Shown here one piece after another: positions 19,330-36,848 of a stretch of DNA of 48,475 bases (within the stretch, counting starts at the first letter, position 1; every line of letters begins with the position of its first letter). The translations under genes and the position numbers were made by a program. The DNA is from Paraflavisolibacter caeni (GTDB lineage: Bacteria; Bacteroidota; Bacteroidia; Chitinophagales; Chitinophagaceae). The DNA lies in NCBI RefSeq assembly GCF_025628885.1, contig NZ_JAOTIF010000006.1, positions 1-48,475 on the forward strand. The letters are read 5' to 3'. The notes under the pieces were generated by a model. That model worked only from the letters and a program-made list of their open reading frames with translations. It made no database searches and was not told the DNA's origin.

Positions 19330-19337
19330 TAATTTTG
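19330..19337 (+). promoter_or_regulatory. -7 box for SRP RNA gene
   Basis: TAATTTTG matches TAnnTTTG and ends 6 bases before the 5' end predicted for the SRP RNA at 19344. No good -33 TTTG lies 19-21 bases upstream. Confidence 0.65.
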
Positions 19338-19343
19338 CACCCC

Positions 19344-19437
19344 GGCAGGTCTTACACGGCCAGCTCCTGCTAAATCCCCCAGGATCGGAAGGTAGCAAGG
19401 GTAAGCGGTTGTAGCGGTGCGATGTAAGTAGCCTGCC
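19344..19437 (+). ncRNA. ffs: SRP RNA, small bacterial type (4.5S)
   Basis: The signal recognition particle RNA binds Ffh and targets ribosomes making membrane proteins. The conserved apical domain is present, with AGGATCGGAAGGTAGCAAG around the GGAA tetraloop (19381-19399), flanked by the symmetric-loop sequence CAGCTCCTG. The terminal helix is closed by GGCAGG (19344-19349) pairing with CCTGCC (19432-19437), followed directly by a T8-type terminator tail (19438-19445). Length of about 94 bases fits the small form. The gene sits alone between the LytTR regulator and transaldolase. Confidence 0.95.
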
Positions 19438-19549
19438 TTTTTTTATTTCCCCTATTTTCAGGTTAATAATCTTCTCTCTTCAATTTATTTCCGGGTTTCT
19501 TATTGCATTTTCTTTTTAACTTTCATATCTCATTTTTTAACTGATTTCG

Positions 19550-24702: not shown

Positions 24703-25668
24703 TTAGCTATTCTGATAGTTGATCATCCAGTTGATGCCGAATTTATCAGTAAAGCTGCCAAAATACGCGCCCCAAAACATATCTTGTAGTGGCATGGAAA
24801 TGTTACCTCCTTCAGATAGTTCTTCAAAAATGCGCTTTGCTTCTTCTCTGGACTCAGGCTCAATGTTTATATGCATATTGTTGCCGTATATTGATGTAAA
24901 GCCCATTTCTTTTGGGGCATCAGTTCCCATAAGAATATGATTGCCTATTATGGGCAATTCAATGTGTAGCACCATGTTCTTTACATTTTCTGCTATAGGT
25001 GGCTGACTTGGATCTGCTGGTAATTCACCAAATCGTTGAATGCCTTTACCACAAAATTCAGTTTGGAAAACAGATCTATAGAATAAAAATGCTTGTTCCG
25101 TATTACCTGGAAAGTTCAGGTAGGTACTAACCCTGGGTGAGTGATTGGGTTTAAGTTCGCTTCTTAGTTTAAATTGAGCTTCAATATACTGGTCAAGGTT
25201 TTCAAGAGCCATTGTGAAACCTTCTTTAAAGCCCATTTCAATTATTTTTTCAAGATCGGCAAGTTCATCATATTTTATGGTAATATCCACCGTTGTGCTG
25301 TCCTCACTTTCATTAAAACTGTTTGTCCAGAATGAGCGAGGGAAGTCTTGATTGATATTCCCTTTTTCATCACAGAATGCGTCCAATGCAGAAAAACTTT
25401 CCAGGGGGCGTATCTCTTTGTAGTCGGCCCTGCACCAATGAACATCACCTTCTGGGCCAACCATTGCATATAACCAATAACCACCTTCTTTAAAATTCAG
25501 TGATTTAGTCTTGGTTTGGTAAGGTTTTGGTGCCCACCAAAGGTCAAGTAATTCAGGTTTTGTCCAGGCATCCCAAACAAGCCCAAGTTGTGCTGCAAAC
25601 TCTCTTTTTACATGGATGGTCTTATTCTTCTTGTCTACTGAAAAATCAAAAAGCAAAATCTGGTTCAT
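24703..25668 (-). CDS. SRPBCC (AHSA1-like)-VOC (PhnB-like) fusion protein
   Basis: 321 residues in two domains. Residues about 15-160 are SRPBCC/AHSA1-like, with [30 protein letters not shown] and the closing [13 protein letters not shown]. Residues about 178-321 are a VOC/glyoxalase fold of the PhnB/3-demethylubiquinone type: [52 protein letters not shown]. Both are usually separate small proteins of about 140-160 residues. The gene overlaps the upstream arsR stop by 4 bases (ATGA) and shares its promoter/operator. Ligand-binding or detoxification roles are common in these folds, but no substrate can be named. Confidence 0.88.
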
Positions 25669-25985
25669 TTTTTATGGTTTTTGGTTGTTGATAATAAATG
25701 ATCTAGCTGGTCAAACCGGTTTTCCCAAATTTTCCTGAACTGATCAAGCCATTTGTCAATTGCCTTCATTTTGTTCACTTGCAGTTGATAATAAATTTCT
25801 CTTCCCTGTTGTTCTTGTTTCACAAGTTCACATTCTGTTAAAATGCGTAAATGTTTCGACACTGCCTGTCGTGTAATATCAAAGTGCTCTGCAATAGCGT
25901 TTGGTGTCATTGCCTGCAACGCTATCAACCCAATTATGGCCCGTCTGGTAGGGTCAGCTATGGCTTGAAAAACATCTCTTCTCAT
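25665..25985 (-). CDS. ArsR-family winged-helix repressor
   Basis: 106 residues from the ATG at 25985 ([20 protein letters not shown], the usual start of this subgroup). The helix-turn-helix is [21 protein letters not shown], followed by the wing around QGREIYYQL. No CxC metal site is present, so this is not an arsenic-type metal sensor; it resembles ArsR regulators paired with SRPBCC genes. A TTG at 26009 in frame is rejected because the likely transcription start lies near there. It autoregulates, by inference, through the palindrome at 25998-26050. Confidence 0.92.
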
Positions 25986-25997
25986 TTTGGAATTATT

Positions 25998-26050
25998 TTG
26001 AGAAACCAATTGGTTGCAAATATAGTATATGCAACCAATTGGTTTCTCAA
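25998..26050 (-). promoter_or_regulatory. arsR promoter inside a 53-bp palindromic operator
   Basis: Arms 25998-26018 and 26030-26050 are perfectly complementary over 21 bp with an 11-base spacer. Each arm carries the self-complementary box AACCAATTGGTT (26004-26015 and 26033-26044), 29 bp centre to centre. On the minus strand the spacer edge contains TATATTTG (26024-26017), a TAnnTTTG -7 box, and TTTG at the far end gives a somewhat long 23-base spacing. Two dimer sites straddling the -7 box and about 13 bases from the arsR ATG fit strong autorepression. Confidence 0.88.
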
Positions 26051-26138: not shown

Positions 26139-26169
26139 TTTGCTGGGAAATTCTCAACCCTTAATTTTG
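26139..26169 (+). promoter_or_regulatory. his operon promoter (TTTG-N19-TAnnTTTG)
   Basis: TTTG at 26139-26142 and TAATTTTG at 26162-26169 are separated by 19 bases, an exact match to the Bacteroidota sigma-ABfr-type consensus. Transcription would begin at about 26175, only some five bases before the leader-peptide ATG at 26180. Confidence 0.88.
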
Positions 26170-26179
26170 CGCCACAATT

Positions 26180-26230
26180 ATGACAATTTTCGCACATACA
26201 CATCATGCTCATACTTGCCTCCAGGGGTAA
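26180..26230 (+). CDS. hisL: his operon leader peptide
   Basis: A 16-codon reading frame, MTIFAHTHHAHTCLQG, with four histidines in seven codons (His 6, 8, 9 and 11), directly after the his promoter and upstream of hisG. Its stop codon TAA (26228-26230) lies inside the first attenuator segment (26225-26233). Position, composition and spacing fit a classical leader peptide whose translation measures charged tRNA-His. No function of the peptide itself is expected. Confidence 0.92.
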   Translation: MTIFAHTHHAHTCLQG

Positions 26231-26288
26231 GCCATTGATGTTTTGTGCGTACAAATAATTGAGGCTTACCCACGGGTAAGCCTTTTTT
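26225..26288 (+). terminator. histidine attenuator: antiterminator/terminator
   Basis: Segment A GGGTAAGCC (26225-26233) and segment C GGGTAAGCC (26274-26282) are identical, and both complement segment B GGCTTACCC (26263-26271). B:C with a flanking A-T pair forms a compact hairpin followed by six T (26283-26288), a rho-independent terminator. A:B forms the alternative antiterminator with a 29-base loop. A ribosome stalled at the His codons (26195-26212) leaves A free; a ribosome reaching the stop codon covers A and allows termination. hisG starts 44 bases after the terminator. Confidence 0.92.
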
Positions 26289-26331
26289 GTTTAAGAACTG
26301 AACCAAAAAGTAAATCAAAAACCTTCAAGCA

Positions 26332-27186
26332 ATGGTCCTGAAACTCGCAATTCAAAAGTCTGGTAGGCTGCACGAGGATTCAATGAAGCTGCTCAATGAT
26401 TGCGGCATCGGTATTAAAAACGGCCACAATCAATTAAAGAGTGTTGCCGATAACTTTCCTATTGAAGCCTATTTTTTACGAGATGACGATATTCCCCAAT
26501 ATGTTGAAGATGGAGTGGCCCATATCGGTATTGTTGGAGAGAATGTACTGTATGAAAAGAACAAATCTGTTGATATTGTTGAGAAGCTAGGGTTTGGCAA
26601 ATGCCGTTTATCCATTGCTGTAAAGAAAACAGATGAATATGGTGATGCCCGGTTCTTAGAAGGGAAGAAGATTGCAACAAGCTATCCTTTCCTTACCCAG
26701 GACTTTTTGAATAAAAATGGTGTAAATGCGGAGATCCATGAGATCAGCGGCTCGGTAGAGTTGGCTCCAGGCATTGGCCTGGCTGATGTGGTTTGTGACC
26801 TGGTTAGCAGCGGGTCTACTTTGTTTATGAATGGCCTGAAGGAAGTGGAACCTATTTTGCAAAGCGAGGCAGTAATGGTCAGAACAAAAGAGCTTACCGA
26901 AGAACAACAATCAGTCCTGAACCAATTGTTGTTCCGCATCCGTTCTGTGCGTAAAGCAAAAAGGAATAAGTACGTGTTGATGAATGCCCCCAACGAATCT
27001 CTACCTCAGATTATCAAACTGTTACCTGGCATGCGCAGTCCGTCAGTGCTTCCTCTGGCTGAAACCGGATGGAGCTCTGTACACAGCGTTTTGAGTGAAG
27101 ATGAGTTTTGGGATAAGATAGAGCAACTTAAAGCCGCTGGTGCCGAAGGCATACTGGTGGTCCCGATTGAAAAAATGATCGTATAA
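26332..27186 (+). CDS. hisG: ATP phosphoribosyltransferase, long form
   Basis: Catalyses the first step of histidine biosynthesis: ATP plus PRPP gives phosphoribosyl-ATP. The 284 residues match the long (hexameric, HisZ-independent) form, with a C-terminal histidine-binding regulatory domain (about 210-284: RSPSVLPLAETGWSSVHSVL). The PRPP loop is visible in ELAPGIGLADVVCDLVSSGSTL (about 142-163; key D-x-V-S-S-G-S-T). Start ATG 26332 with LKLAIQKSGRL typical. First gene of hisGDC, controlled by the upstream attenuator. Confidence 0.97.
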   Translation: MVLKLAIQKSGRLHEDSMKLLNDCGIGIKNGHNQLKSVADNFPIEAYFLRDDDIPQYVEDGVAHIGIVGENVLYEKNKSVDIVEKLGFGKCRLSIAVKKTDEYGDARFLEGKKIATSYPFLTQDFLNKNGVNAEIHEISGSVELAPGIGLADVVCDLVSSGSTLFMNGLKEVEPILQSEAVMVRTKELTEEQQSVLNQLLFRIRSVRKAKRNKYVLMNAPNESLPQIIKLLPGMRSPSVLPLAETGWSSVHSVLSEDEFWDKIEQLKAAGAEGILVVPIEKMIV

Positions 27187-27233: not shown

Positions 27234-28514
27234 ATGCAGTTATTCAATAATCCTTCTAAACAAGATTGGAACGGCCTTTTACAAAGACCCTATAATGATA
27301 ATACAGCTGTTTTGCAGTCAGTTCAATCTATTTTGTCCGAGGTAAAGCAGAACGGCGATGCCGCTTTAAGGAGCCTGGCATTAAAGTTTGATGGTGCAGA
27401 GCTGAAAGAGTTACAAGTGAGTGCATCAGAGATCGAAGAGGCCGAAGTTCTGTTAACCACAGAATTGAAACAGGCTATTCAACAGGCAAAAGAAAATATT
27501 TTCACTTTCCATTCTTTTCAAATGCATAAGCCACGCTCTGTTGAAACGATGCAGGGCATAGAATGCTGGAGAAAAAGTGTTGGTATAGAAAAGGTCGGTT
27601 TATACATTCCTGGTGGCACTGCGCCTTTGTTTTCAACTATCCTGATGTTGGGCATTCCCGCATCTATCGCAGGTTGTAAAGAAGTAGTATTATGTTCACC
27701 TTGCAACAAAGAAGGTAAGCTGCATCCAGCCATACTATTTACAGCTAACCTGGTGGGCATTAAAAAGATCTTCAAAGTAGGAGGGGCCCAGGCTATTGCA
27801 GCTATGGCCTATGGTACAGAAAGTATCCCTGCCGTGTATAAGATCTTTGGGCCCGGCAATCAATATGTTACAGCGGCCAAACAATTGATTCAGGTAAGTG
27901 GGGTAGCTATCGATATGCCTGCTGGCCCTAGTGAAGTTTGTGTCCTTGCAGATGAAACGGCCAACCCGGCTTTTATAGCGTCCGATTTATTATCACAGGC
28001 GGAGCATGGCGTAGACAGCCAAGTGTTGTTGGTGAGTACATCAGAGCCCATGGTACAAAAAGTGCTGCAGGAAGTGAAAAAGCAGCTGGAGCAATTGCCC
28101 AGGAAAGATCTTGCTCAAAAAGCACTGAATAATAGTAAGGCTATTGTGGTAAATACAATGGATGATGCCATCGAAATGGTGAATGAATATGCTGCAGAAC
28201 ACCTGATCGTATGTTGCAGGGATGCAGAGGTAATTGCTGAAAAGATTTCGAATGCTGGTTCTGTTTTCATTGGAAATTATTCGCCCGAAAGTGTAGGGGA
28301 CTATGCCAGTGGAACTAATCATACTTTACCAACGAATGCCTTTGCCCGTGCTTATAGCGGTGTTAGCGTAGATAGCTTTGTTAAAAAAATCACTTTCCAG
28401 AAGCTTTCTAAAGATGGTCTGAAAAACATTGCACAGACAGTGATTGAAATGGCTGAAGCAGAAGGCCTGAAGGCTCATGCTAATGCAGTGAGGGTAAGGA
28501 TATCTGAACCTTGA
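27234..28514 (+). CDS. hisD: histidinol dehydrogenase
   Basis: Oxidises histidinol through histidinal to histidine with two NAD+, the last two steps of the pathway. The 426 residues match the family. Landmarks are VGLYIPGGTAPLFST (about 120-134), VGGAQAIAAMAYGTE, the FGPGNQYVTAAKQ segment and catalytic/zinc residues in SDLLSQAEHGVDSQ (His of AEHG). The catalytic His-Glu pair is in the NEYAAEHLIV segment. It follows hisG by 47 bases and precedes hisC by 145 bases. Confidence 0.97.
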   Translation: MQLFNNPSKQDWNGLLQRPYNDNTAVLQSVQSILSEVKQNGDAALRSLALKFDGAELKELQVSASEIEEAEVLLTTELKQAIQQAKENIFTFHSFQMHKPRSVETMQGIECWRKSVGIEKVGLYIPGGTAPLFSTILMLGIPASIAGCKEVVLCSPCNKEGKLHPAILFTANLVGIKKIFKVGGAQAIAAMAYGTESIPAVYKIFGPGNQYVTAAKQLIQVSGVAIDMPAGPSEVCVLADETANPAFIASDLLSQAEHGVDSQVLLVSTSEPMVQKVLQEVKKQLEQLPRKDLAQKALNNSKAIVVNTMDDAIEMVNEYAAEHLIVCCRDAEVIAEKISNAGSVFIGNYSPESVGDYASGTNHTLPTNAFARAYSGVSVDSFVKKITFQKLSKDGLKNIAQTVIEMAEAEGLKAHANAVRVRISEP

Positions 28515-28659: not shown

Positions 28660-29724
28660 GTGGTTACTTTCAACCTTGACAATCTCGTCAGAGAAAATAT
28701 AAAAGCATTAACACCTTATTCTTCCGCCCGGGATGAATTTAAAGGTGAGGCAAGAATATTTTTAGATGCCAATGAAAACAGCTTTGGCTCTCCACTTACT
28801 AAATGGTACAATCGCTACCCGGATCCTTTACAATGGGAGTTGAAAAAGAAGATCGCTTCTATCAAATCTGTAAAGCCCGAAAATATACTTTTGGGTAATG
28901 GTAGTGATGAATGCATTGATCTGCTCATCCGTGCTTTTTGCGAGCCGCAATTGGATAATATTGTTATTTGTCCGCCAACATACGGCATGTATGAAGTGTA
29001 TGCAAACATCAATAATGTGCCCTTAAAAAGGGTGCCCCTGACACCAAATTACCAATTAGACCTTGAAGCATTATCCGAATCGGTGGATGAACGCACCAAG
29101 CTTATCTTCCTTTGCTCTCCCAACAACCCTACCGCTAATAGCCTTTTACGTGAGGATGTGGAGATGATTCTGAATAACTTCGATGGTTTAGTTGTCATCG
29201 ATGAAGCTTACATCAACTTTAGCAGGCAGCGCTCCTTTATTCCCGACTTGCAGGACTATCCCAACCTGGTGATCATGCAAACGTTTTCAAAAGCCTGGGG
29301 ATTAGCTGCGCTGCGCTTGGGAATGACCATTGCTTCACCTGAAATCATAGACATCCTGAATAAAATAAAGCCGCCTTATAACATCAACCAGGCAACCCAG
29401 GAATTAGCGATGAAGGCGTTGGACAACCTGGATGACGTGAATGCAATGATCAAGGAAATCGTTGCCGAGCGAGAACTATTGACAAAAGAATTGCAAGAGC
29501 TTTCATTGGTTGAGAAAGTATATCCATCTGATGCCAATTTTGTGCTGGCAAAAGTTTCTGACGCTTTATCTATATATAACTTTTTAAAAGATCATGGAAT
29601 TATTGTTCGTAACCGAAGCAATGTGATCCTGTGCGAGGGGTGTCTACGCATCACTATTGGTACTCCTCCTGAAAACAAAGAACTACTTGCAAAGCTGAAA
29701 CAATATTCAGACGGCGTTGCTTAA
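28660..29724 (+). CDS. hisC: histidinol-phosphate aminotransferase
   Basis: A PLP-dependent class I/II aminotransferase that transfers the glutamate amino group to imidazole-acetol phosphate. The 354 residues are typical. Landmarks are LDANENSFGSP (about 30-40), LLGNGSDECIDLLIRAF, CSPNNPTANSL, VIDEAYINFS and the Schiff-base lysine in TFSKAWGLAALRLG. The start is a GTG at 28660. It is third in the his operon after a 145-base gap that has no gene; hisBHAFI do not follow, because the next gene is on the opposite strand. Confidence 0.96.
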   Translation: MVTFNLDNLVRENIKALTPYSSARDEFKGEARIFLDANENSFGSPLTKWYNRYPDPLQWELKKKIASIKSVKPENILLGNGSDECIDLLIRAFCEPQLDNIVICPPTYGMYEVYANINNVPLKRVPLTPNYQLDLEALSESVDERTKLIFLCSPNNPTANSLLREDVEMILNNFDGLVVIDEAYINFSRQRSFIPDLQDYPNLVIMQTFSKAWGLAALRLGMTIASPEIIDILNKIKPPYNINQATQELAMKALDNLDDVNAMIKEIVAERELLTKELQELSLVEKVYPSDANFVLAKVSDALSIYNFLKDHGIIVRNRSNVILCEGCLRITIGTPPENKELLAKLKQYSDGVA

Positions 29725-29808: not shown

Positions 29809-30576
29809 TTACAGGTCTTTCCTATTAAATGATCTTACCGCCAGCAGCAATGGTGTGATCATCCAGAGCAGCATGATACCTATGGTGTACAATGCTCCTG
29901 TGCCACTACCAAAGAAATCTTTGTACATAGCTCCTGTATATCCCATAAGGGCACTAATATCCATCTTCAGCATGATAAAGATCCTTCCCAAGTCAACAGG
30001 ATTTAAAGATGAAAGTAACAATGTTAGCTTCTCCAGCGGATAATCACTGAATGTAAATAGCACAAGCAATACCAGTCCGTCATATATGAGGGCAAAATAA
30101 AACCACAACATCAATGCAGCGCCAATACCGCGGGCTTTATCCCGGGATTGTACGGAAGTAAAGAAAGCAAGGGATGTAAAAATAAAGGTGAGCAGGCAAC
30201 CCGTTAAAACTAAGGATATCCCTGTGCTATTAAAATAGAATAGTACAACAGGAATACCTACACCAATCAGGAAAGAAGAAGATAGTGAAAGGGCGGTTCC
30301 TAAATATTCACTTAACAGGATCTTAGTCCGGCTTACCGGCTGTGAAAGCATAAGTTCTATGAACTCATAGGAATTATAATAGTGAATAGTAGAAAACACC
30401 ATGCTGATCAGGGGGACAACAATCAGTACAATATTCAACAGGCTCAAAACAGCTTTCCCACTGTTATCTTCCATTTGGAACAATGAGAAGGAAACGGCCA
30501 TAAGGAACAATGTATACGCAATGATTACTTTACTCCTCACGATATCATACAAAACATATTTAGATAGCTTTAGCAT
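29809..30576 (-). CDS. nosY: nos cluster ABC transporter permease
   Basis: 255 residues with six predicted transmembrane helices (about 15-33, 42-64, 93-113, 118-138, 150-178 and 230-246) and the ABC-2 permease motif NSYEFIELMLSQPVSRTKILLSEYLG (about 67-92; key ELMLSQPVSR). With NosF and NosD it forms the NosDFY complex that matures the CuZ centre of nitrous oxide reductase. It overlaps nosF by 17 bases and is the last gene of the cluster, with a terminator 44 bases downstream. Confidence 0.9.
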   Translation of the reverse strand: MLKLSKYVLYDIVRSKVIIAYTLFLMAVSFSLFQMEDNSGKAVLSLLNIVLIVVPLISMVFSTIHYYNSYEFIELMLSQPVSRTKILLSEYLGTALSLSSSFLIGVGIPVVLFYFNSTGISLVLTGCLLTFIFTSLAFFTSVQSRDKARGIGAALMLWFYFALIYDGLVLLVLFTFSDYPLEKLTLLLSSLNPVDLGRIFIMLKMDISALMGYTGAMYKDFFGSGTGALYTIGIMLLWMITPLLLAVRSFNRKDL

Positions 30577-31333
30577 AGTCGGCCTCCCTGTTTTCGGTCA
30601 TAGGAATAGTGGCTGTTCCATCTTTAAGGTAGCGTTTCATTACCTGGGCAATGGCTTTCTCCAGCCTCGTTTCTCCGGTTTGCTGCTTGATGTTTTCAAC
30701 TGTTTGATACAGGTGAAGCTTTCCATCCTGCAGGTACATCACATCTGTAGTCAGTTCATCCAGGTCACTCAACACATGGCTCGTTATCAGGATTAGCTTA
30801 CCCTTCTTCTTTTCCTTTATAATTTTATCTTTTAGGATTTCACTTGCCAGCGGATCCAAACCTGCTGTAGGTTCGTCAAGAATCAATACATCCGGATTGA
30901 ATAAAAATGCAAGCACAGCACTCACTTTTTGCCTGGTGCCACCTGACAAGCTACGCATGTTTTTGTCCTGCATTTCATCCATCTTGAAATCAAAAAACAG
31001 CTCATCATCCAAGGTGCCGTCTTTATGGTTCCTGATATTTTTGACCATTTCTATAACCTGTCCAATCTTCATGTTGTCCGGGTAACGGCCAATTTGCGGC
31101 ATGTATCCAATATTATCTCTATAGGCCACCTGCTTGTCAATCGACTTGCCAGCAAACAAAATGCTGCCTGCATCTGGTTTCACAATGCCAAGAATGGATT
31201 TGATCAGCGTTGTTTTGCCAGAGCCGTTAGGTCCTATCAATGACACCACCTGTCCTCTACTGAAGGATGCGCTAACATCATTCAGTGCATGCAGCTTTTT
31301 AAATTTTTTATGTAGGTTTTTTATAGTGATCAT
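30560..31333 (-). CDS. nosF: nos cluster ABC transporter ATP-binding protein
   Basis: 257 residues with a complete nucleotide-binding domain: Walker A GPNGSGKT (34-41), signature LSGGTRQ (129-135), Walker B and D-loop LILDEPTAGLD (150-160), and the switch histidine in ITSHVLSDLDE. It powers the NosDFY copper/sulfur delivery complex. The gene overlaps nosY by 17 bases and follows nosD by 4 bases, so all three are translationally linked. Confidence 0.92.
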   Translation of the reverse strand: MITIKNLHKKFKKLHALNDVSASFSRGQVVSLIGPNGSGKTTLIKSILGIVKPDAGSILFAGKSIDKQVAYRDNIGYMPQIGRYPDNMKIGQVIEMVKNIRNHKDGTLDDELFFDFKMDEMQDKNMRSLSGGTRQKVSAVLAFLFNPDVLILDEPTAGLDPLASEILKDKIIKEKKKGKLILITSHVLSDLDELTTDVMYLQDGKLHLYQTVENIKQQTGETRLEKAIAQVMKRYLKDGTATIPMTENREADYAKAI

Positions 31334-31337
31334 CGTT

Positions 31338-32582
31338 TCATTTTTTTTCTTTCAATTTCAATCCTTTCATCAGCGGTTGGTCATCGCGTAAGTTTTCAGG
31401 TGTAAGGCTGGGAATAGCACGTTCTGCTTTGTCAAGCAATGAAACCATAAAGCTGCGCAAAAGCATCAATGTATTTGGGCTGTTTTCTACAATGGTGGAA
31501 TACATGCTGACCGGGTGGTAAGCCACATCTCCAAAGCCATCCTTATTCAAATCATAGCCTTCGTATTTGTCCCAATAATTGTTATTAAAAGTATTCAACA
31601 CCAGTGTGCCATTTGTCCCAACATCAAAGGTGTTTGACAAGAAATTGTTATGAAAGAATGTGTTATCCATGCAACTTGCCTGCACCTTTGCTGCCCACCC
31701 ATTAGCTTTAAAAACATTGTTGGTTACATTGATCCGGTTAGTGCCTTCCATATAGATGCCGACAGTGTTCTGGTAAAAGGTATTGCTATCAATTTTGCTA
31801 TCGTTGATTTCTTTGAGCAATAAGCCATAAGCCGCTGCGCCCCAGTTGCTGTCAAAATGATTGAGCAGCATGTGCACTTGCTTTGAATACATCACTGCCA
31901 CGCCAGCGCCATTATTTTTGAAAGTGTTTTCTACATACCAATTATCATTCGAGAACATAAAGTGTAAACCATACCGTATGTTGCCTTCGCTAAAATTTTT
32001 CTGGATGAGTGATTGTGTAACAAACTCAAAGTAGATGCCATCGCGATGGCCATGAATTTCATTGTTTTCAATTAAAGCATTGTTACATTTCCACAGGTGA
32101 ATCCCATTTCCGGTAGTTTGTTCAGATTTGGTAAGACCATTGAAATAATTGCTTCGAATAGTAAAATGATGGCTATTGGCTATATGTACGCCAAAGTATG
32201 CATTTGTTACCCGGTTGTTTTCAAAAATGATATTGCTTGCGTCTATTATTTTCACTGAAGCAAAATCGTTCATGGCAGAATAGCCAGAGTTCGTAAAATG
32301 AAAACCTTTTATAGTTATATCTTTCCCACTGACAGTAAAGATCTCGTATTTGTCGGCTCCATGTAGCAAGGGGTAGTTTTCACCAATTAGATAAATGGAT
32401 TTGATGATGACGATATTATTGATATAATAGGTTCCTTTTTTAACAAGAATAGTATCCCTGTCCTGAGCGGCAGCAACAGCCTCCCGGATTGTTGAGTAGG
32501 TCTGTCCCTTTCCCACAACCAGTGTGCGGCATAACCCTGGCAACGCCATTAAAACACATGCTATCAGGAAAAGATTTTTCAT
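31338..32582 (-). CDS. nosD: periplasmic copper-processing protein NosD
   Basis: 414 residues with a signal peptide (about 1-19, ending GLCR) and a right-handed parallel beta-helix (about 30-340) of repeated N-x-I and NNxF turns, for example IEHGHRDGIYFEF-like GHRDGIYFEF and FMFSNDNWYVENTF. NosD is the periplasmic part of NosDFY and needed for CuZ assembly. The closing NNYWDKYEGYDLNKDGFGDVAY segment is characteristic of NosD. Its start codon overlaps the stop of the NosL fusion gene by one base. Confidence 0.94.
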   Translation of the reverse strand: MKNLFLIACVLMALPGLCRTLVVGKGQTYSTIREAVAAAQDRDTILVKKGTYYINNIVIIKSIYLIGENYPLLHGADKYEIFTVSGKDITIKGFHFTNSGYSAMNDFASVKIIDASNIIFENNRVTNAYFGVHIANSHHFTIRSNYFNGLTKSEQTTGNGIHLWKCNNALIENNEIHGHRDGIYFEFVTQSLIQKNFSEGNIRYGLHFMFSNDNWYVENTFKNNGAGVAVMYSKQVHMLLNHFDSNWGAAAYGLLLKEINDSKIDSNTFYQNTVGIYMEGTNRINVTNNVFKANGWAAKVQASCMDNTFFHNNFLSNTFDVGTNGTLVLNTFNNNYWDKYEGYDLNKDGFGDVAYHPVSMYSTIVENSPNTLMLLRSFMVSLLDKAERAIPSLTPENLRDDQPLMKGLKLKEKK

Positions 32583-33625
32583 TATTGAACTTGATTGTAT
32601 AACGATTGCCAGTTCATTACATGGCCGTTTACTGTTTTCTGCAATTCCGCTGCAGCCTTTTCATTACTTAGTGCTGCGGCATTGCTATTCATTGGACTGT
32701 GAATTTGATCACTAACTACATAGGTTGCACTTTCCGCTTTGATAAAATCATTTTCTTTCTGATAATTGATCACCAGGTTTTGTGCAATATCCTCCTGTTT
32801 TACTTCCCCCTTTTTCAAAGCGCTGATCAGGCAATGCATATCGTCAAACTTCAATATTTTGCCCTTCTTTGTAATAATCTCTGCCCCAAATTGTGGCGAC
32901 ATGATGGTCATCTTACAGAAATGACAGCCGTCTTTACCATAATTAAAGGGTTCCGGACCTGTCTTGCAGGATGTGAAAATTGTAGCTATAACAATTGACG
33001 TCACTGCTAAATGGTTGTATTTTTTGTTCGATTGGTTTGGGTTTTTCTGATTTCTTCTATTGCGCATAGTATCAAATATCCATGCTCCAATAAATAAAGC
33101 TCCTGCTGCTACAATGATCCATCCGCCATTTGCTGGATACGAGAAGGCATCAAAGTTCAACAGCTTTTTATGTCCAATTAATGGTGGTTGATAGGATAAT
33201 CCGGGCACTTGAATAGCAGCTGTAGGATCCAGGTTGTGGCCATAGTCGTAACCCCATTGGTAAAAGTCGTACATGGCAGTAACGCCTCCAGCTATTAAAA
33301 GAAATATAAATGCTAGCAATAGATTTCGATTGCCAATAAGGGCTACTAAAAGACCTAGCACCACAAAAGCACCAACTACATAAACCAGGTAAGTAAACTC
33401 CGGAAACATTTCTGCCTTAATGTGCTTCATCCCGATATAGTGGTTCAGGCCATTGATGATATCCACCTGTCCTGTTATCTTATTCAGCCAGATTTGCATA
33501 CTGAGACCTTCCGGATATTGAGGTGCAACGAGGTCTATGTTCCAAATGGGAAAGAAGATGGTGGCAATTAATGCCAGGGAGGCAATTACAACAAGAATTC
33601 TAGCTATTCGACTCATCTTTTTCAT
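32582..33625 (-). CDS. nosL: membrane protein-NosL fusion
   Basis: 347 residues from the ATG at 33625 (MKKMSRIARILVV). A leftward extension to 33691 would read through a perfect hairpin and is rejected. The N-terminal half (about 1-205) has five or so hydrophobic helices and a large loop (QYPEGLSMQIWLNKITGQVDIINGLNHYIGMKHI, about 36-69; key NGLNHYIGM), matching a membrane protein usually encoded separately in clade II nos clusters. The C-terminal half (about 215-347) is NosL, a copper chaperone, with its own lipobox-like FTSC and the metal-site segment CHFCKMTIMSPQFGAEI. Normally two genes, here joined in one frame. Confidence 0.9.
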   Translation of the reverse strand: MKKMSRIARILVVIASLALIATIFFPIWNIDLVAPQYPEGLSMQIWLNKITGQVDIINGLNHYIGMKHIKAEMFPEFTYLVYVVGAFVVLGLLVALIGNRNLLLAFIFLLIAGGVTAMYDFYQWGYDYGHNLDPTAAIQVPGLSYQPPLIGHKKLLNFDAFSYPANGGWIIVAAGALFIGAWIFDTMRNRRNQKNPNQSNKKYNHLAVTSIVIATIFTSCKTGPEPFNYGKDGCHFCKMTIMSPQFGAEIITKKGKILKFDDMHCLISALKKGEVKQEDIAQNLVINYQKENDFIKAESATYVVSDQIHSPMNSNAAALSNEKAAAELQKTVNGHVMNWQSLYNQVQ

Positions 33626-33639
33626 AACCTTTCTTTTAA

Positions 33640-33670
33640 AGCTTCCAGGGAGTAGTGAGCCCTGGAAGCT
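33640..33670 (-). other. intercistronic hairpin upstream of NosL fusion
   Basis: AGCTTCCAGGG (33640-33650) and CCCTGGAAGCT (33660-33670) form a perfect 11-bp stem with a 9-base loop between the fasciclin stop (33702) and the NosL-fusion ATG (33625). On the minus strand it is followed by TTTAAAAG, too short a U tract for a strong terminator. Confidence 0.85.
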
Positions 33671-33701
33671 GTATGATGAAAATGACAACAATAAATCTTA
33701 T

Positions 33702-34256
33702 CTACTGTGGTTGCAAAACCCCATCAATCACATGAATGATACCATTCGATGCAGGTATGCTCGCAATGATAGTTGCTGTTCCATTCACAATCAATTTTCC
33801 ATCCTTCTTGCTGATGGTAATATTCTTGCTGTTCGCTTGGTTGATTACTTGTCCGTCCTGCAACATCTCAGGTTTAAACACACCCACGGAAACATGATAT
33901 TGAAGGATATCCTGAAGTTCGGACTTTTTATCATCTTTCATCAACGCATTCAGCGTTTCCTTGGGTAATTTCTCAAAGGCTGCATTGGTAGGAGCAAACA
34001 CTGTGAATGGACCTGCATTTGAAAGAACATCTACCAATTCTGCTTGTTTCACTGCTGCAACTAGCGTACTGTGGTCTTTGGATGAAGCAGCAACTTTTAC
34101 AATATCTTTTTGCGATTCGTCATCCTGTACAGCAGATTGTCCGCCAACAGATTCTGTATTTTCTGTTGATGATTGTGCCTCATTGGTTGAAGCATTACAA
34201 GCAAAGGCAAATAAAGCGATTATTAATATTGATAAGCAATTGATGATCTTTTTCAT
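33702..34256 (-). CDS. fasciclin (FAS1) domain lipoprotein in nos cluster
   Basis: 184 residues from the ATG at 34256; a TTG at 34265 would add three. The signal ends in a lipobox (FAFAC, about Cys 20). A Ser/Thr/Glu-rich linker precedes one FAS1 domain (about 50-184) with STLVAAVKQAELVDVLSNAGPFTVFAPTNAAF at residues 60-91 (key FTVFAPTNAAF), LQDILQYHV, and the closing NGIIHVIDGVLQP. FAS1 domains mediate adhesion or ligand binding. It lies between nosZ and the NosL fusion on the same strand, bracketed by hairpins at 34293-34318 and 33640-33670. Role in N2O reduction is not established. Confidence 0.9.
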   Translation of the reverse strand: MKKIINCLSILIIALFAFACNASTNEAQSSTENTESVGGQSAVQDDESQKDIVKVAASSKDHSTLVAAVKQAELVDVLSNAGPFTVFAPTNAAFEKLPKETLNALMKDDKKSELQDILQYHVSVGVFKPEMLQDGQVINQANSKNITISKKDGKLIVNGTATIIASIPASNGIIHVIDGVLQPQ

Positions 34257-34292
34257 ATAATGCAATCAATTTTATTTAGTTTTAGTATAGAA

Positions 34293-34318
34293 CAGAGCAG
34301 CCTTATAAGGCTGCTCTG
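34293..34318 (-). other. hairpin after nosZ
   Basis: CAGAGCAGCC (34293-34302) pairs with GGCTGCTCTG (34309-34318) around TTATAA, which itself is self-complementary. It sits 8 bases after the nosZ stop. The T8 run lies on the plus-strand side (34319-34327), so on the minus strand the hairpin lacks a U tract and may act as a 3' stabiliser or partial terminator; it would terminate plus-strand antisense transcripts well. Confidence 0.8.
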
Positions 34319-34325
34319 CTTTTTT

Positions 34326-36350
34326 TTATTTAGATGATTTTGGGGTCGTTGCTGGCGTACTGGTTGCAGTAGCAGCTGGCAGGTTGGTACCTGTGCTATA
34401 TGTAAGTGCAACATTACTACCGGCAGGTGATATGCGGATGTATCCTTGCATTTCCTGGTGCAATGCAGAACAGAAGTCGGTGCAATAGAACGGGAATACA
34501 CCAATTCTGTCGGGCTGCCATTTCAGCGTTTGTGTTTCACCAGGCATAATCAGGATCTCTGAATTATTAGCGCCTTTGATAGCGAAACCATGCGGTACAT
34601 CCCAATCCTGTTCAACGTTGGTTACATGGAAGTAAACTACATCCCCGAGTTTAACACCTTCGATATTATCAGGAGTCAGGTGTGAACGAACGGCTGTCAT
34701 AGAAACATGCACTTCATTGCCTTTGCGTTCTACTTTTGTTTGATTGTCTCCTTTTGCTGCATACGGATGCTGGTTTTCTTCTATTTTATAGATCTTCTTA
34801 CTATTATTCATAATAAGTGAAGCTGGAATAGATTCTGCATAGTGCGGCTCACCAACAGTTGGGAAATCCAGCAATAGCTTCATCTTTTCGCCACTGATGT
34901 CATACAATTGCGCACTTTGTGTCAACTCAGGACCTGTGGGCAGGTAACGGTCTTTAGTGATCTTATTGTAAGCAATCACATATTTACCCCACGGCTTTTT
35001 AGTGGGGCCGCCAGGAATCGACAGGTGGCCAACTGAGTAATAAGTAGGTACGCGGTCCAACACTTTAAGGCTCTTAATGTCCCATTTAACGATTTCTGAA
35101 GAAACAAAGAAAGATGTATATGCATTGCCTTTTCCATCAAACTCCGTATGCAAAGGTCCGAGACCAGGCTTTTGTACCTCGCCATGCAGAACAGCATCAT
35201 ATTTCAGTACTGGGATACCGTCGTAGCTGCCATCGAAATTTTTGCTGGCAATTGCTTGTTGAATCTTAGCAAATGAAAATACAGGAATAGTAGCTGCTAA
35301 TTTTCCCGAACCAACAATGTATTCGCCTGTTGGATCAACATCGGTTCCGTGTGGGCTCTTGGGACAAGGCATCATATATACCATGTCAGGACAGTCTTTT
35401 GGATCCAAAGTGAGCACTTCATTGATCATTGTAGAAGTGGCAGTATGGGTCTTTTCATCCAATACATTATGAGCATATTTCACAGGTACTTTCTTGCCTT
35501 TACCTGCGCGTGCATATTCCTGGGCCTTTTTCCAATTCACGGCCATGATAAAGTCTTTGTCTTTAGCTGACGCATTTACTTCCAGGAGCGTATTTGCTTT
35601 TTCAGAATTATAGCAGCTAAAGAAGAACCAGTCTTTAGAGGGCCCCTTACCGGCACGCGCCAGGTCAAAGTTGACACCAGGTAAGAGCAACTGGAAGTCG
35701 ATAGACATGTGGCCAGTAGCCTGGTCAACAGCTATAAAAGAAATCGTGCCCTTGAAGTTGTCCTTATAGGTGTTGATGGGTACATCAGTATTACTATTGT
35801 CCAACGGGATTGAGAAACGGGTGCCTGCTACAACATACTCTGTGTTTTCTGTAATAAAAGGAGAGGAGTGGTTACCGGCACTATTAGGAATTTCAATGAT
35901 TTCCTCTGTGCGGAAAGTGCTCAGACTTACCCGGCCAATCCGTGGGGTATTATTTGCATTACCAAAAGCCCAACGGCCGTCATGCTCGCCATTAGTAGTT
36001 GAAAGAGCAATGTGGTGAAGGTCGTCCCAGGGCACAAAGCCATGAGATGTGTTCAACATGGGTTTTGATTCTTCGCTAAAGCCATATCCGTTTTCCGGAT
36101 GTTGCGAAAAAACAGGAATAATACGAAACATGCGCCCGGATGGAATTCCATAAACGCTCATTTGGCCATTAAAGCCGCCAGAAACGATATTATAAAATTC
36201 ATCGTGTTTACCCGGGGCAACATAAACTTTTGAGGCTGCATCGTTAGTTGAAGCACTGCCTGCAGAACTGGAATTACAGCTCTGTAACCCACTTGTTAAG
36301 GCAGCTACAGATGCTGTCAGGATGAAGAGTTTTGAGGAGTTGACTTTCAT
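34326..36350 (-). CDS. nosZ: nitrous oxide reductase, clade II type
   Basis: Reduces N2O to N2 in the periplasm using the CuZ and CuA centres. 674 residues. The N-terminus is a Sec/lipoprotein-type signal (SGLQSC lipobox, about Cys 25) with no twin-arginine motif, characteristic of clade II (atypical) NosZ. The seven-bladed propeller carries CuZ histidine motifs such as DDLHHIALSTTNGEHDGRW and KSPHGTDVDPTGEY. The C-terminal cupredoxin domain has the CuA ligands in FYCTDFCSALHQEM (Cys 623, Cys 627, His 631, Met 634) and the upstream DVPHGF histidine. A Ser/Thr/Pro-rich tail follows. All key ligands are present, so the enzyme should be functional. It follows the cytochrome gene by 30 bases. Confidence 0.97.
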   Translation of the reverse strand: MKVNSSKLFILTASVAALTSGLQSCNSSSAGSASTNDAASKVYVAPGKHDEFYNIVSGGFNGQMSVYGIPSGRMFRIIPVFSQHPENGYGFSEESKPMLNTSHGFVPWDDLHHIALSTTNGEHDGRWAFGNANNTPRIGRVSLSTFRTEEIIEIPNSAGNHSSPFITENTEYVVAGTRFSIPLDNSNTDVPINTYKDNFKGTISFIAVDQATGHMSIDFQLLLPGVNFDLARAGKGPSKDWFFFSCYNSEKANTLLEVNASAKDKDFIMAVNWKKAQEYARAGKGKKVPVKYAHNVLDEKTHTATSTMINEVLTLDPKDCPDMVYMMPCPKSPHGTDVDPTGEYIVGSGKLAATIPVFSFAKIQQAIASKNFDGSYDGIPVLKYDAVLHGEVQKPGLGPLHTEFDGKGNAYTSFFVSSEIVKWDIKSLKVLDRVPTYYSVGHLSIPGGPTKKPWGKYVIAYNKITKDRYLPTGPELTQSAQLYDISGEKMKLLLDFPTVGEPHYAESIPASLIMNNSKKIYKIEENQHPYAAKGDNQTKVERKGNEVHVSMTAVRSHLTPDNIEGVKLGDVVYFHVTNVEQDWDVPHGFAIKGANNSEILIMPGETQTLKWQPDRIGVFPFYCTDFCSALHQEMQGYIRISPAGSNVALTYSTGTNLPAATATSTPATTPKSSK

Positions 36351-36380
36351 AAAATTTATATGTTGTTGAAAATGAAGAGA

Positions 36381-36848
36381 TTATTTTACGCCATCGTTAC
36401 TGCGCATAAATTCAATGATGTGACGGGCCTCATCTTGTGTTACGTTCTGGTTTGGCATCCTTACCAGGCATATTTCAAGGAGTTTTTGCGCTTCACCATC
36501 AGTATTTAGCATTTCATCCGGATGCGTAATCATATTCAAGATCCAGCCGGCTTGGCGTCTTTGGGTAACACCTTTCCAACCTGGGCCCACCAATTTCTCA
36601 TCGGTTAGCTTGTGGCATGATTGACATTTCATTTCATAAAGACCTTTCCCTGTTGTTACCCATTCCTGATTTAATGGGGTGCTTAGTTGAACTTCTGGCA
36701 TGGACAATGCAGCAGTTGCTGCTTCGGCTGTTTTTGTTGCAGGTTCCTGGCTAGTTTCCGGTTCCTGGGCCTTGTTTTCTGAACAAGAAAACATCGATAA
36801 TGACCCTGCAAATAGAAGAGCTGTGGTTACAATTTTGATCTTTCTCAT
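36381..36848 (-). CDS. c-type cytochrome lipoprotein of nos cluster
   Basis: 155 residues with a lipobox (SMFSC, Cys 22), a Glu/Thr/Ala-rich linker (about 25-48) and one haem site CQSCH (Cys 75, Cys 78, His 79). A likely distal Met lies in VRMPNQNV. It is the first gene of the nos transcript, 30 bases ahead of nosZ. In clade II nos clusters such cytochromes are the probable electron donors to NosZ. That role is inferred from position. Confidence 0.92.
   Translation of the reverse strand: MRKIKIVTTALLFAGSLSMFSCSENKAQEPETSQEPATKTAEAATAALSMPEVQLSTPLNQEWVTTGKGLYEMKCQSCHKLTDEKLVGPGWKGVTQRRQAGWILNMITHPDEMLNTDGEAQKLLEICLVRMPNQNVTQDEARHIIEFMRSNDGVK

Follow-up and report, generated by a model that had tools for sequence, protein, structure and literature searches.

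A probable histidine attenuator with a predicted near-leaderless reading frame upstream of hisG in Paraflavisolibacter caeni, and His-codon leaders at hisG across its class

The hisG gene of Paraflavisolibacter caeni is preceded by a short reading frame rich in His codons and by segments able to form alternative hairpins, which very probably act together in ribosome-mediated attenuation: transcription of hisGDC would be controlled according to the supply of charged histidyl-tRNA. Leader and hairpin would probably shut off the genes when histidine is plentiful. The parts, their complementarity, their conservation and the match between leader codons and operon were taken from the sequence and from the comparison of genomes; the order of events, the dependence on histidine and the start site are the modelled portion of this account. 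What is new here is the anatomy of the device, its breadth and its predicted (near-)leaderless start; the mechanism itself is classical.

The window, i.e. the whole stretch of 48,475 nucleotides analysed here, carries the parts of the leader on its plus strand. The -7 element of the Bacteroidota primary sigma factor, TAATTTTG (consensus TAnnTTTG), is located at positions 26162-26169, and a TTTG at 26139-26142 is a weak candidate for a -33 element by its likeness to the F. johnsoniae promoters of PMC6847099. Transcription start sites of F. johnsoniae are located 4 or 5 nt 3' of the -7 element according to passages of the same paper, and with this spacing transcription is predicted to start at 26174-26175, 5-6 nt before the leader ATG (26180-26182). 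A spacer of 10 nt, CGCCACAATT, separates the -7 element from this ATG, which opens a leader peptide frame of 16 codons, MTIFAHTHHAHTCLQG (26180-26230), found by direct reading and by script. The frame contains four His codons, all CAT, as codons 6, 8, 9 and 11, and ends with the stop codon TAA at 26228-26230.

Four segments can be distinguished in and behind the leader frame. Segment 1 (CTTGCC, 26214-26219) lies within the frame and pairs with segment A to form a protector hairpin. Segment A, GGGTAAGCC (26225-26233), contains the leader stop codon and has either segment 1 or segment B as its partner. Segment B, GGCTTACCC (26263-26271), is the 5' arm of the terminator and pairs with A in the antiterminator or with C, and segment C, again GGGTAAGCC (26274-26282), is the 3' arm. 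The T6 run that follows (26283-26288) is the predicted release site, giving a transcript estimated at about 115 nt. The earlier note on this DNA had described the promoter, the 16-codon leader with its four His codons, segments A, B and C and the T6 run, all of which we recovered at the same positions by direct reading and script; a script likewise verified that A and C are identical, that both are complementary to B and that the TAA is inside A. The distance of about five bases that it gave between predicted start and start codon agrees with the 5-6 nt obtained by the 4-5 nt rule of PMC6847099.

These parts stand out from their surroundings. The fold of positions 26160-26300 has an energy of -40.3 kcal/mol, compared with a shuffle mean of -26.2 (z -3.95; one of 200 shuffles was equally good). 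Between 26000 and 26500 there are two terminator-like sites versus 0.3 expected, and the one on the plus strand is B:C. A sigma-70 scan of the same interval, with a model that excludes the Bacteroidota promoter type, returned a single site, on the opposite strand and not above shuffle level. When all short open reading frames of 7-40 codons in the window were scanned for His density (655 with distinct stops on the plus and 739 on the minus strand), no second frame with at least four His per seven codons was found anywhere in the 48 kb. The arrangement of an 8-mer, its complement within 70 nt, the same 8-mer again and a T-rich tail also occurs nowhere else in the window on either strand.

In the proposed mechanism, RNA polymerase would start 5-6 nt before the leader ATG and a ribosome would load almost at the 5' end of the transcript. 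When histidine is plentiful, this ribosome would reach the stop codon inside A and cover A, B and C would pair, and transcription would end at the T run; after the departure of the ribosome, 1:A could form and leave B for C. When histidyl-tRNA is scarce, the ribosome would halt at His codons 6-11, with A free to pair with B while C is still unmade. Once A:B has formed, no terminator would arise and hisGDC would be transcribed. If the leader is not translated, the RNA is predicted to end up as 1:A plus B:C, and transcription would terminate.

We examined the alternative structures by folding the leader with the usual footprint of a ribosome masked. When the ribosome was placed at each of the four His codons in turn, RNA up to the end of B folded as A:B (about -23 kcal/mol), and extension to the T tail still gave A:B. 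Forced A:B reached -24.3, lower than the -20.9 of forced B:C. A ribosome at the stop codon gave B:C, and the whole leader without a ribosome folded as 1:A plus B:C. Given the A:B fold with the ribosome at the His codons, low histidyl-tRNA should, according to this model, raise transcription of hisGDC. The unmasked RNA ending at B also folds as A:B, and termination without translation would therefore hinge on timing.

Next, the upstream regions of hisG were compared. hisG was located in 91 of the 117 genomes searched in the family (Chitinophagaceae) and in 127 of the 295 searched in the class, and we compared 90 family loci with loci from 100 of the 122 class genomes that had a match outside the family. 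A His-dense leader, defined loosely as a short open reading frame with at least three His per seven codons within 420 nt of hisG, is present upstream of 171 of these 190 genes (83/90 in the family and 88/100 in other families); the background of this definition is 10 of 188 reverse strands and 196 of 3760 shuffles. With at least four His per seven codons required, 153 of 188 hisG upstream regions contain a leader, compared with 11 of 3760 dinucleotide shuffles (0.3%) and none of 188 reverse strands. Among named relatives (the best 80 were taken, and they overlap the 190-locus set), 78 of the 79 with enough sequence have the leader; those with family names are mostly Chitinophagaceae. The closest of them, Paracnuella aquatica, whose hisG is 80% identical, has the leader MINLVHIHHHAHTCLQG.

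The His codons are thus conserved in relatives (83/90 in the family, 88/100 in other families, 78/79 named relatives), which together with the conserved A/B/C complementarity described below upholds the interpretation of the earlier note as a histidine attenuator. What that note observed in the window is confirmed; it overlooked the spread of the device across the class (171/190 loci). The number of His residues in the family leaders ranges from 3 to 7, and 57 of 82 exceed the four of the window leader. No leader was found within the searched 420 nt at seven of the 90 family loci: two of these are cut by contig ends and five have enough upstream sequence, among them L055, whose leader is located 552 nt upstream. 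Outside the family, no leader was found at 12 of the 100 class loci. In the phylum outside the class, where hisG starts were placed by script, eight of 20 loci (five of 17 families) have at least four His per seven codons and one more has three; in family f78, also outside the class, none of 27 loci reaches three His per seven codons. Searching the genome of the window for a -7 element with a nearby ATG and CATCAT gave 338 matches, too many for this pattern to be informative.

We then screened the leader loci for a terminator 3' of the leader stop, which had to consist of a hairpin at least as stable as -6 kcal/mol and a T-rich tail. Such a terminator follows the leader at 159 of the 171 loci (83/83 in the family and 76/88 elsewhere), compared with 61 of 342 shuffles (37/166 and 24/176, respectively). 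At -10 or better, the counts are 79/83 in the family and 70/88 in other families, versus 6/166 and 6/176 of the shuffles. These results bear on the possibility that leader and hairpin act on the translation of hisG, either by masking its start or through reinitiation. A precedent would be the peak of Bacteroidetes leader open reading frames 11-14 bp before genes, which PMC4833913 reads as an aid to reinitiation. A few class loci (six of family f41) have a His leader without a good terminator, as such a mechanism would allow. Against it, about 50 nt lie between the end of the B:C hairpin of the window, which carries a T6 tail, and the hisG start, and a hairpin with a T-rich tail is present at every one of the 83 family leader loci. 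Moreover, leader stop and hisG are separated by anything from roughly 65 to 290 nt, a variation that is in keeping with termination but would not suit masking or reinitiation at close range. We consider control of hisG translation very unlikely and retain transcription termination as the preferred reading. A good terminator is absent after 12 of the 88 leaders outside the family, and half of these 12 belong to f41; at these six loci (L180, L181, L182, L184, L186 and L187) a His-rich leader precedes hisG without a good intrinsic terminator, and another transcription stop or control at the level of translation may operate there.

The antiterminator A:B excludes the terminator B:C, as both share B, and this complementarity is conserved, with four of 34 families not supporting it. 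Segment A was searched for as the best-pairing 8-mer between 57 nt before the leader stop and B, and its register with the stop codon was left free; a fixed A region of 30 nt around the stop codon had left 17 "weak" family loci, and the wider scan did better. In the best A:B pairing, eight of eight positions pair at 55 of the 82 family loci, seven at 25 and six at two. A beats the best pairing of an upstream control of equal length at 80 of 81 loci in the family and at 64 of 73 in other families (three ties); this control errs slightly on the generous side, since the choice of the B window was made jointly with that of the real A. The fair test is that between families, in which the own B and foreign Bs are given an identical search: for 30 of the 34 families, the own B outranks that of other families (mean rank 0.73; Wilcoxon p 2e-7). 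The remaining four, f3, f50, f11 and f13, fall below 0.5 in this ranking and give no A:B support.

Within the family, A and B are nearly invariant (GGTAAGCC-type A and GGCTTACC-type B) and change is mostly one-sided towards G-U; two-sided compensatory change is rare because the A/B/C sequence is so conserved. Any argument from covariation would consequently depend on the comparison between families, where B differs greatly, as in CCCGTCTG with the A sequence CAGGCGAG at three loci outside the family. The A/B/C complementarity of the earlier note is in this way kept in relatives (80/81 and 64/73 over control; 30/34 families). At 50 of 82 family loci the best-pairing A starts 2 nt (39 loci) or 1 nt (11 loci) before the stop codon. 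The stop codon within A varies at the 52 in-register loci, being TAG at 26, TAA at 22 and TGA at four (L080 looks out of register), and each of the three still pairs with TTA in B by means of G-U.

At 12 of the 82 family loci, A is located 20-28 nt upstream of the stop codon, with the reading frame running on. The geometry put forward in the earlier note, in which stalling frees A and a terminating ribosome masks it, agrees with the folding of the window, but its second half does not apply at these 12 loci. There, A lies beyond the cover of a terminating ribosome, so that masking is not the sole route to termination; at these loci a re-formed 1:A hairpin, and not the terminating ribosome, would protect B.

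Segment 1 had been overlooked in the three-segment switch of the earlier note, of which A, B and C are borne out. It is a CTTRCC-type sequence within the leader codons, and a perfect 6-bp 1:A pairing, with G-U allowed, is possible at 42 of the 52 in-register family loci, compared with 8.8% of 970 control spans; the length of 6 bp was fixed after inspection of the data. A test with 8 bp gave little signal (on average, 30% of the control spans were equally good in the family). The first base of segment 1 falls in codon phase 1 at 27 loci, in phase 2 at 10 and in phase 0 at 5. Its occurrence in all three phases indicates that it is conserved as RNA and not as peptide. The switch would have four alternating segments (1:A, A:B and B:C), as do the trp and his attenuators of enteric bacteria. 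The codon phases also bear on the idea that the His-rich frame encodes a small protein with a function of its own, e.g. in metal binding, and that the terminator only separates it from hisG. His-rich peptides can indeed bind metals. However, the His number varies from 3 to 7 in the family, segment 1 is kept as nucleotides in different codon phases, and there are parallel Trp-rich and Phe/Tyr-rich leaders to which no metal logic applies. We give this idea hardly any credence.

If the leader reads charged tRNA, its codons are expected to follow the operon, and this is what was observed. In the genome of the window, the region in front of trpE contains the Trp-rich leader MKKTNNQYWWWHTNS and a GC-rich hairpin that ends in a T tail; in front of pheA there are the Phe/Tyr-rich MKTTRAYYYFYFYFFSEKPGCFC and a hairpin. 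A Thr/Ile-rich frame, MLVIASPAILTATTTIFTTRKGCH, is present upstream of thrA, and a weaker leader candidate, MKLLYSPAGCFCIY, upstream of leuA. trpE had a match in 73 of 98 family genomes, and the best 30 of these loci were examined: 29 of these best 30 contain a short upstream reading frame with at least two Trp per seven codons, versus 20 of 190 hisG regions, and 28 have at least three, versus one of 190 hisG regions. Many trp leaders of the family (L245, L254-L282) share a tail, WWWHTN...RGL, after the Trp codons.

The shift of leader codons with the operon (His, Trp, Phe/Tyr) is not explained if the hairpin senses histidine or tRNA directly, as a riboswitch or T-box, with the His-rich reading frame incidental. 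Such devices have a precedent in the T-boxes that control histidine genes in Firmicutes and Actinobacteria (PMC9413887). In Rfam searches of the window's hisG leader and of 14 other loci, at both gathering and relaxed thresholds, no family was found, T-boxes and riboswitches included, and none reached its gathering score. The best sub-threshold match is itself a leader-peptide family, Phe_leader (RF01859), a weak likeness of 23.8 bits at 26222-26290 against a gathering score of 55, which has Phe and not His codons. Direct sensing is accordingly highly improbable in our estimate, and the reading of codons by a ribosome remains our explanation of the hisG leader.

The short distance between promoter and start codon is not confined to the window. 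A TAnnTTTG occurs 0-30 nt before an in-frame leader ATG at 75 of 83 family leader loci, taking the ATG nearest to the -7 element where there are several in frame. The spacing between element and ATG is at most 10 nt at 56 of these 83 loci, including 4-5 nt at 21, and 11-30 nt at 19; eight have no match. Of 88 loci outside the family, 22 have a spacing of at most 10 nt and 36 one of 11-30 nt, and 30 lack a TAnnTTTG. As predicted from these spacings, 21 of the 83 family his leaders would be truly leaderless, with the AUG at +1, and in 56 of the 83 the 5' UTR would not exceed 6 nt. Passages of the genome-wide studies put 5' UTRs under 10 nt at 3.7% in B. thetaiotaomicron (PMC7366714) and leaderless transcripts at 5.5% in F. 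psychrophilum (PMC9723704), and Bacteroidota are described as having no Shine-Dalgarno sequences and a different promoter (PMC6847099). We tentatively suggest, with the balance leaning slightly against it, that most amino acid operons of Bacteroidota are under a form of attenuation peculiar to the phylum, with translation of the leader peptide beginning at the 5' end of the message, or a few bases from it, without a Shine-Dalgarno sequence. If this is true, leaderless initiation, rare genome-wide in the phylum, would be a means of loading a ribosome early enough to control a terminator. The his leaders offer a simple, testable account of the control of amino acid synthesis in bacteria without Shine-Dalgarno sequences and a natural panel of near-leaderless reading frames for studies of initiation, and the device may also yield compact switches, responsive to histidine or tryptophan, for genetic work in Bacteroidota.

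For the his operon of enteric bacteria, whose leader has seven His in a row, leader-peptide attenuation is textbook knowledge. The enteric his attenuator (His_leader, RF00514) and the window leader share a short His leader frame, alternative hairpins, a terminator with a U run and a position upstream of hisG; the window leader differs in having four His codons, a length of only about 115 nt, a Bacteroidota promoter and an ATG a few nucleotides from the predicted 5' end. RF00514 was not matched at its gathering score in the window or the 14 other loci, so the leader, which works like the his attenuator in our model, is placed in that mechanistic class and not in the Rfam family. In passages of PMC9413887 and PMC2965389, his attenuators of the leader-peptide type are assigned to Proteobacteria and to a few Firmicutes; for leader-peptide systems as a whole, those of PMC2965389 name Proteobacteria and Actinobacteria. 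The attenuators at hisZ and hisS of Firmicutes share a leader with His codons and an antiterminator/terminator pair with the window leader; they occur in another phylum and in few lineages (the B. cereus group, the C. difficile group and Erysipelotrichales). The word stem "bacteroid" is absent from the main text of both papers, and in the consulted passages of PMC8305728, which deals with the his genes of the superphylum, "attenuation" appears once, for enterics. The device is well supported and, going by the counts given above, commoner in the class than these sources state.

The nearest published observation is that of PMC9723704 (2021) in Flavobacterium psychrophilum; its authors found strong signs of attenuation by leader peptides in front of amino acid operons, and they list structured 5' elements without an Rfam family upstream of pheA and hisG that are present in other genera of Flavobacteriaceae. 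The hisG element concerns the same phylum and the same gene in another family, and the section of that paper devoted to it gives no leader sequence, segments or mechanism. Apart from this, a literature search limited to freely accessible main texts returned no description of the anatomy of a Bacteroidota hisG attenuator.

The genes that the attenuator would control follow on the plus strand. hisG (26332-27186) encodes the long form with the C-terminal domain (TIGR00070 and TIGR03455, both over cut-off); hisD (27234-28514; TIGR00069 over cut-off) and hisC (28660-29724; TIGR01141 over cut-off) are considered regulated by their position. hisB, a frame of 379 amino acids, is located on another contig, about 3.6 kb before trpE (G000:C23:176658-180748; L371, L245), and no His-dense short frame was found in the 1500 nt upstream of its domain. 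With hisB elsewhere and no His leader found in that stretch, the attenuator would control only part of the pathway.

Several other features were noted in the window. On the minus strand upstream of the leader there is a gene for an ArsR/SmtB-type regulator (25665-26009; NF033788 over cut-off), and a perfect inverted repeat with 19-nt arms (26000-26018 and 26030-26048) at the start of this gene is perhaps the regulator's own operator. The regulator gene is adjoined by that of a 321-aa protein (24703-25668, minus strand) with a C-terminal VOC-fold match, NF007537, below cut-off. Directly after hisC, the minus strand encodes NosD, a NosL-domain protein, an ABC transporter, a Fasciclin-domain protein, a nos_propeller protein and a cytochrome c (29809-36848), which looks like a nitrous oxide reductase cluster. 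Finally, a Bacteroidales small SRP RNA is present at 19336-19442 (RF04183, 99.1 bits).
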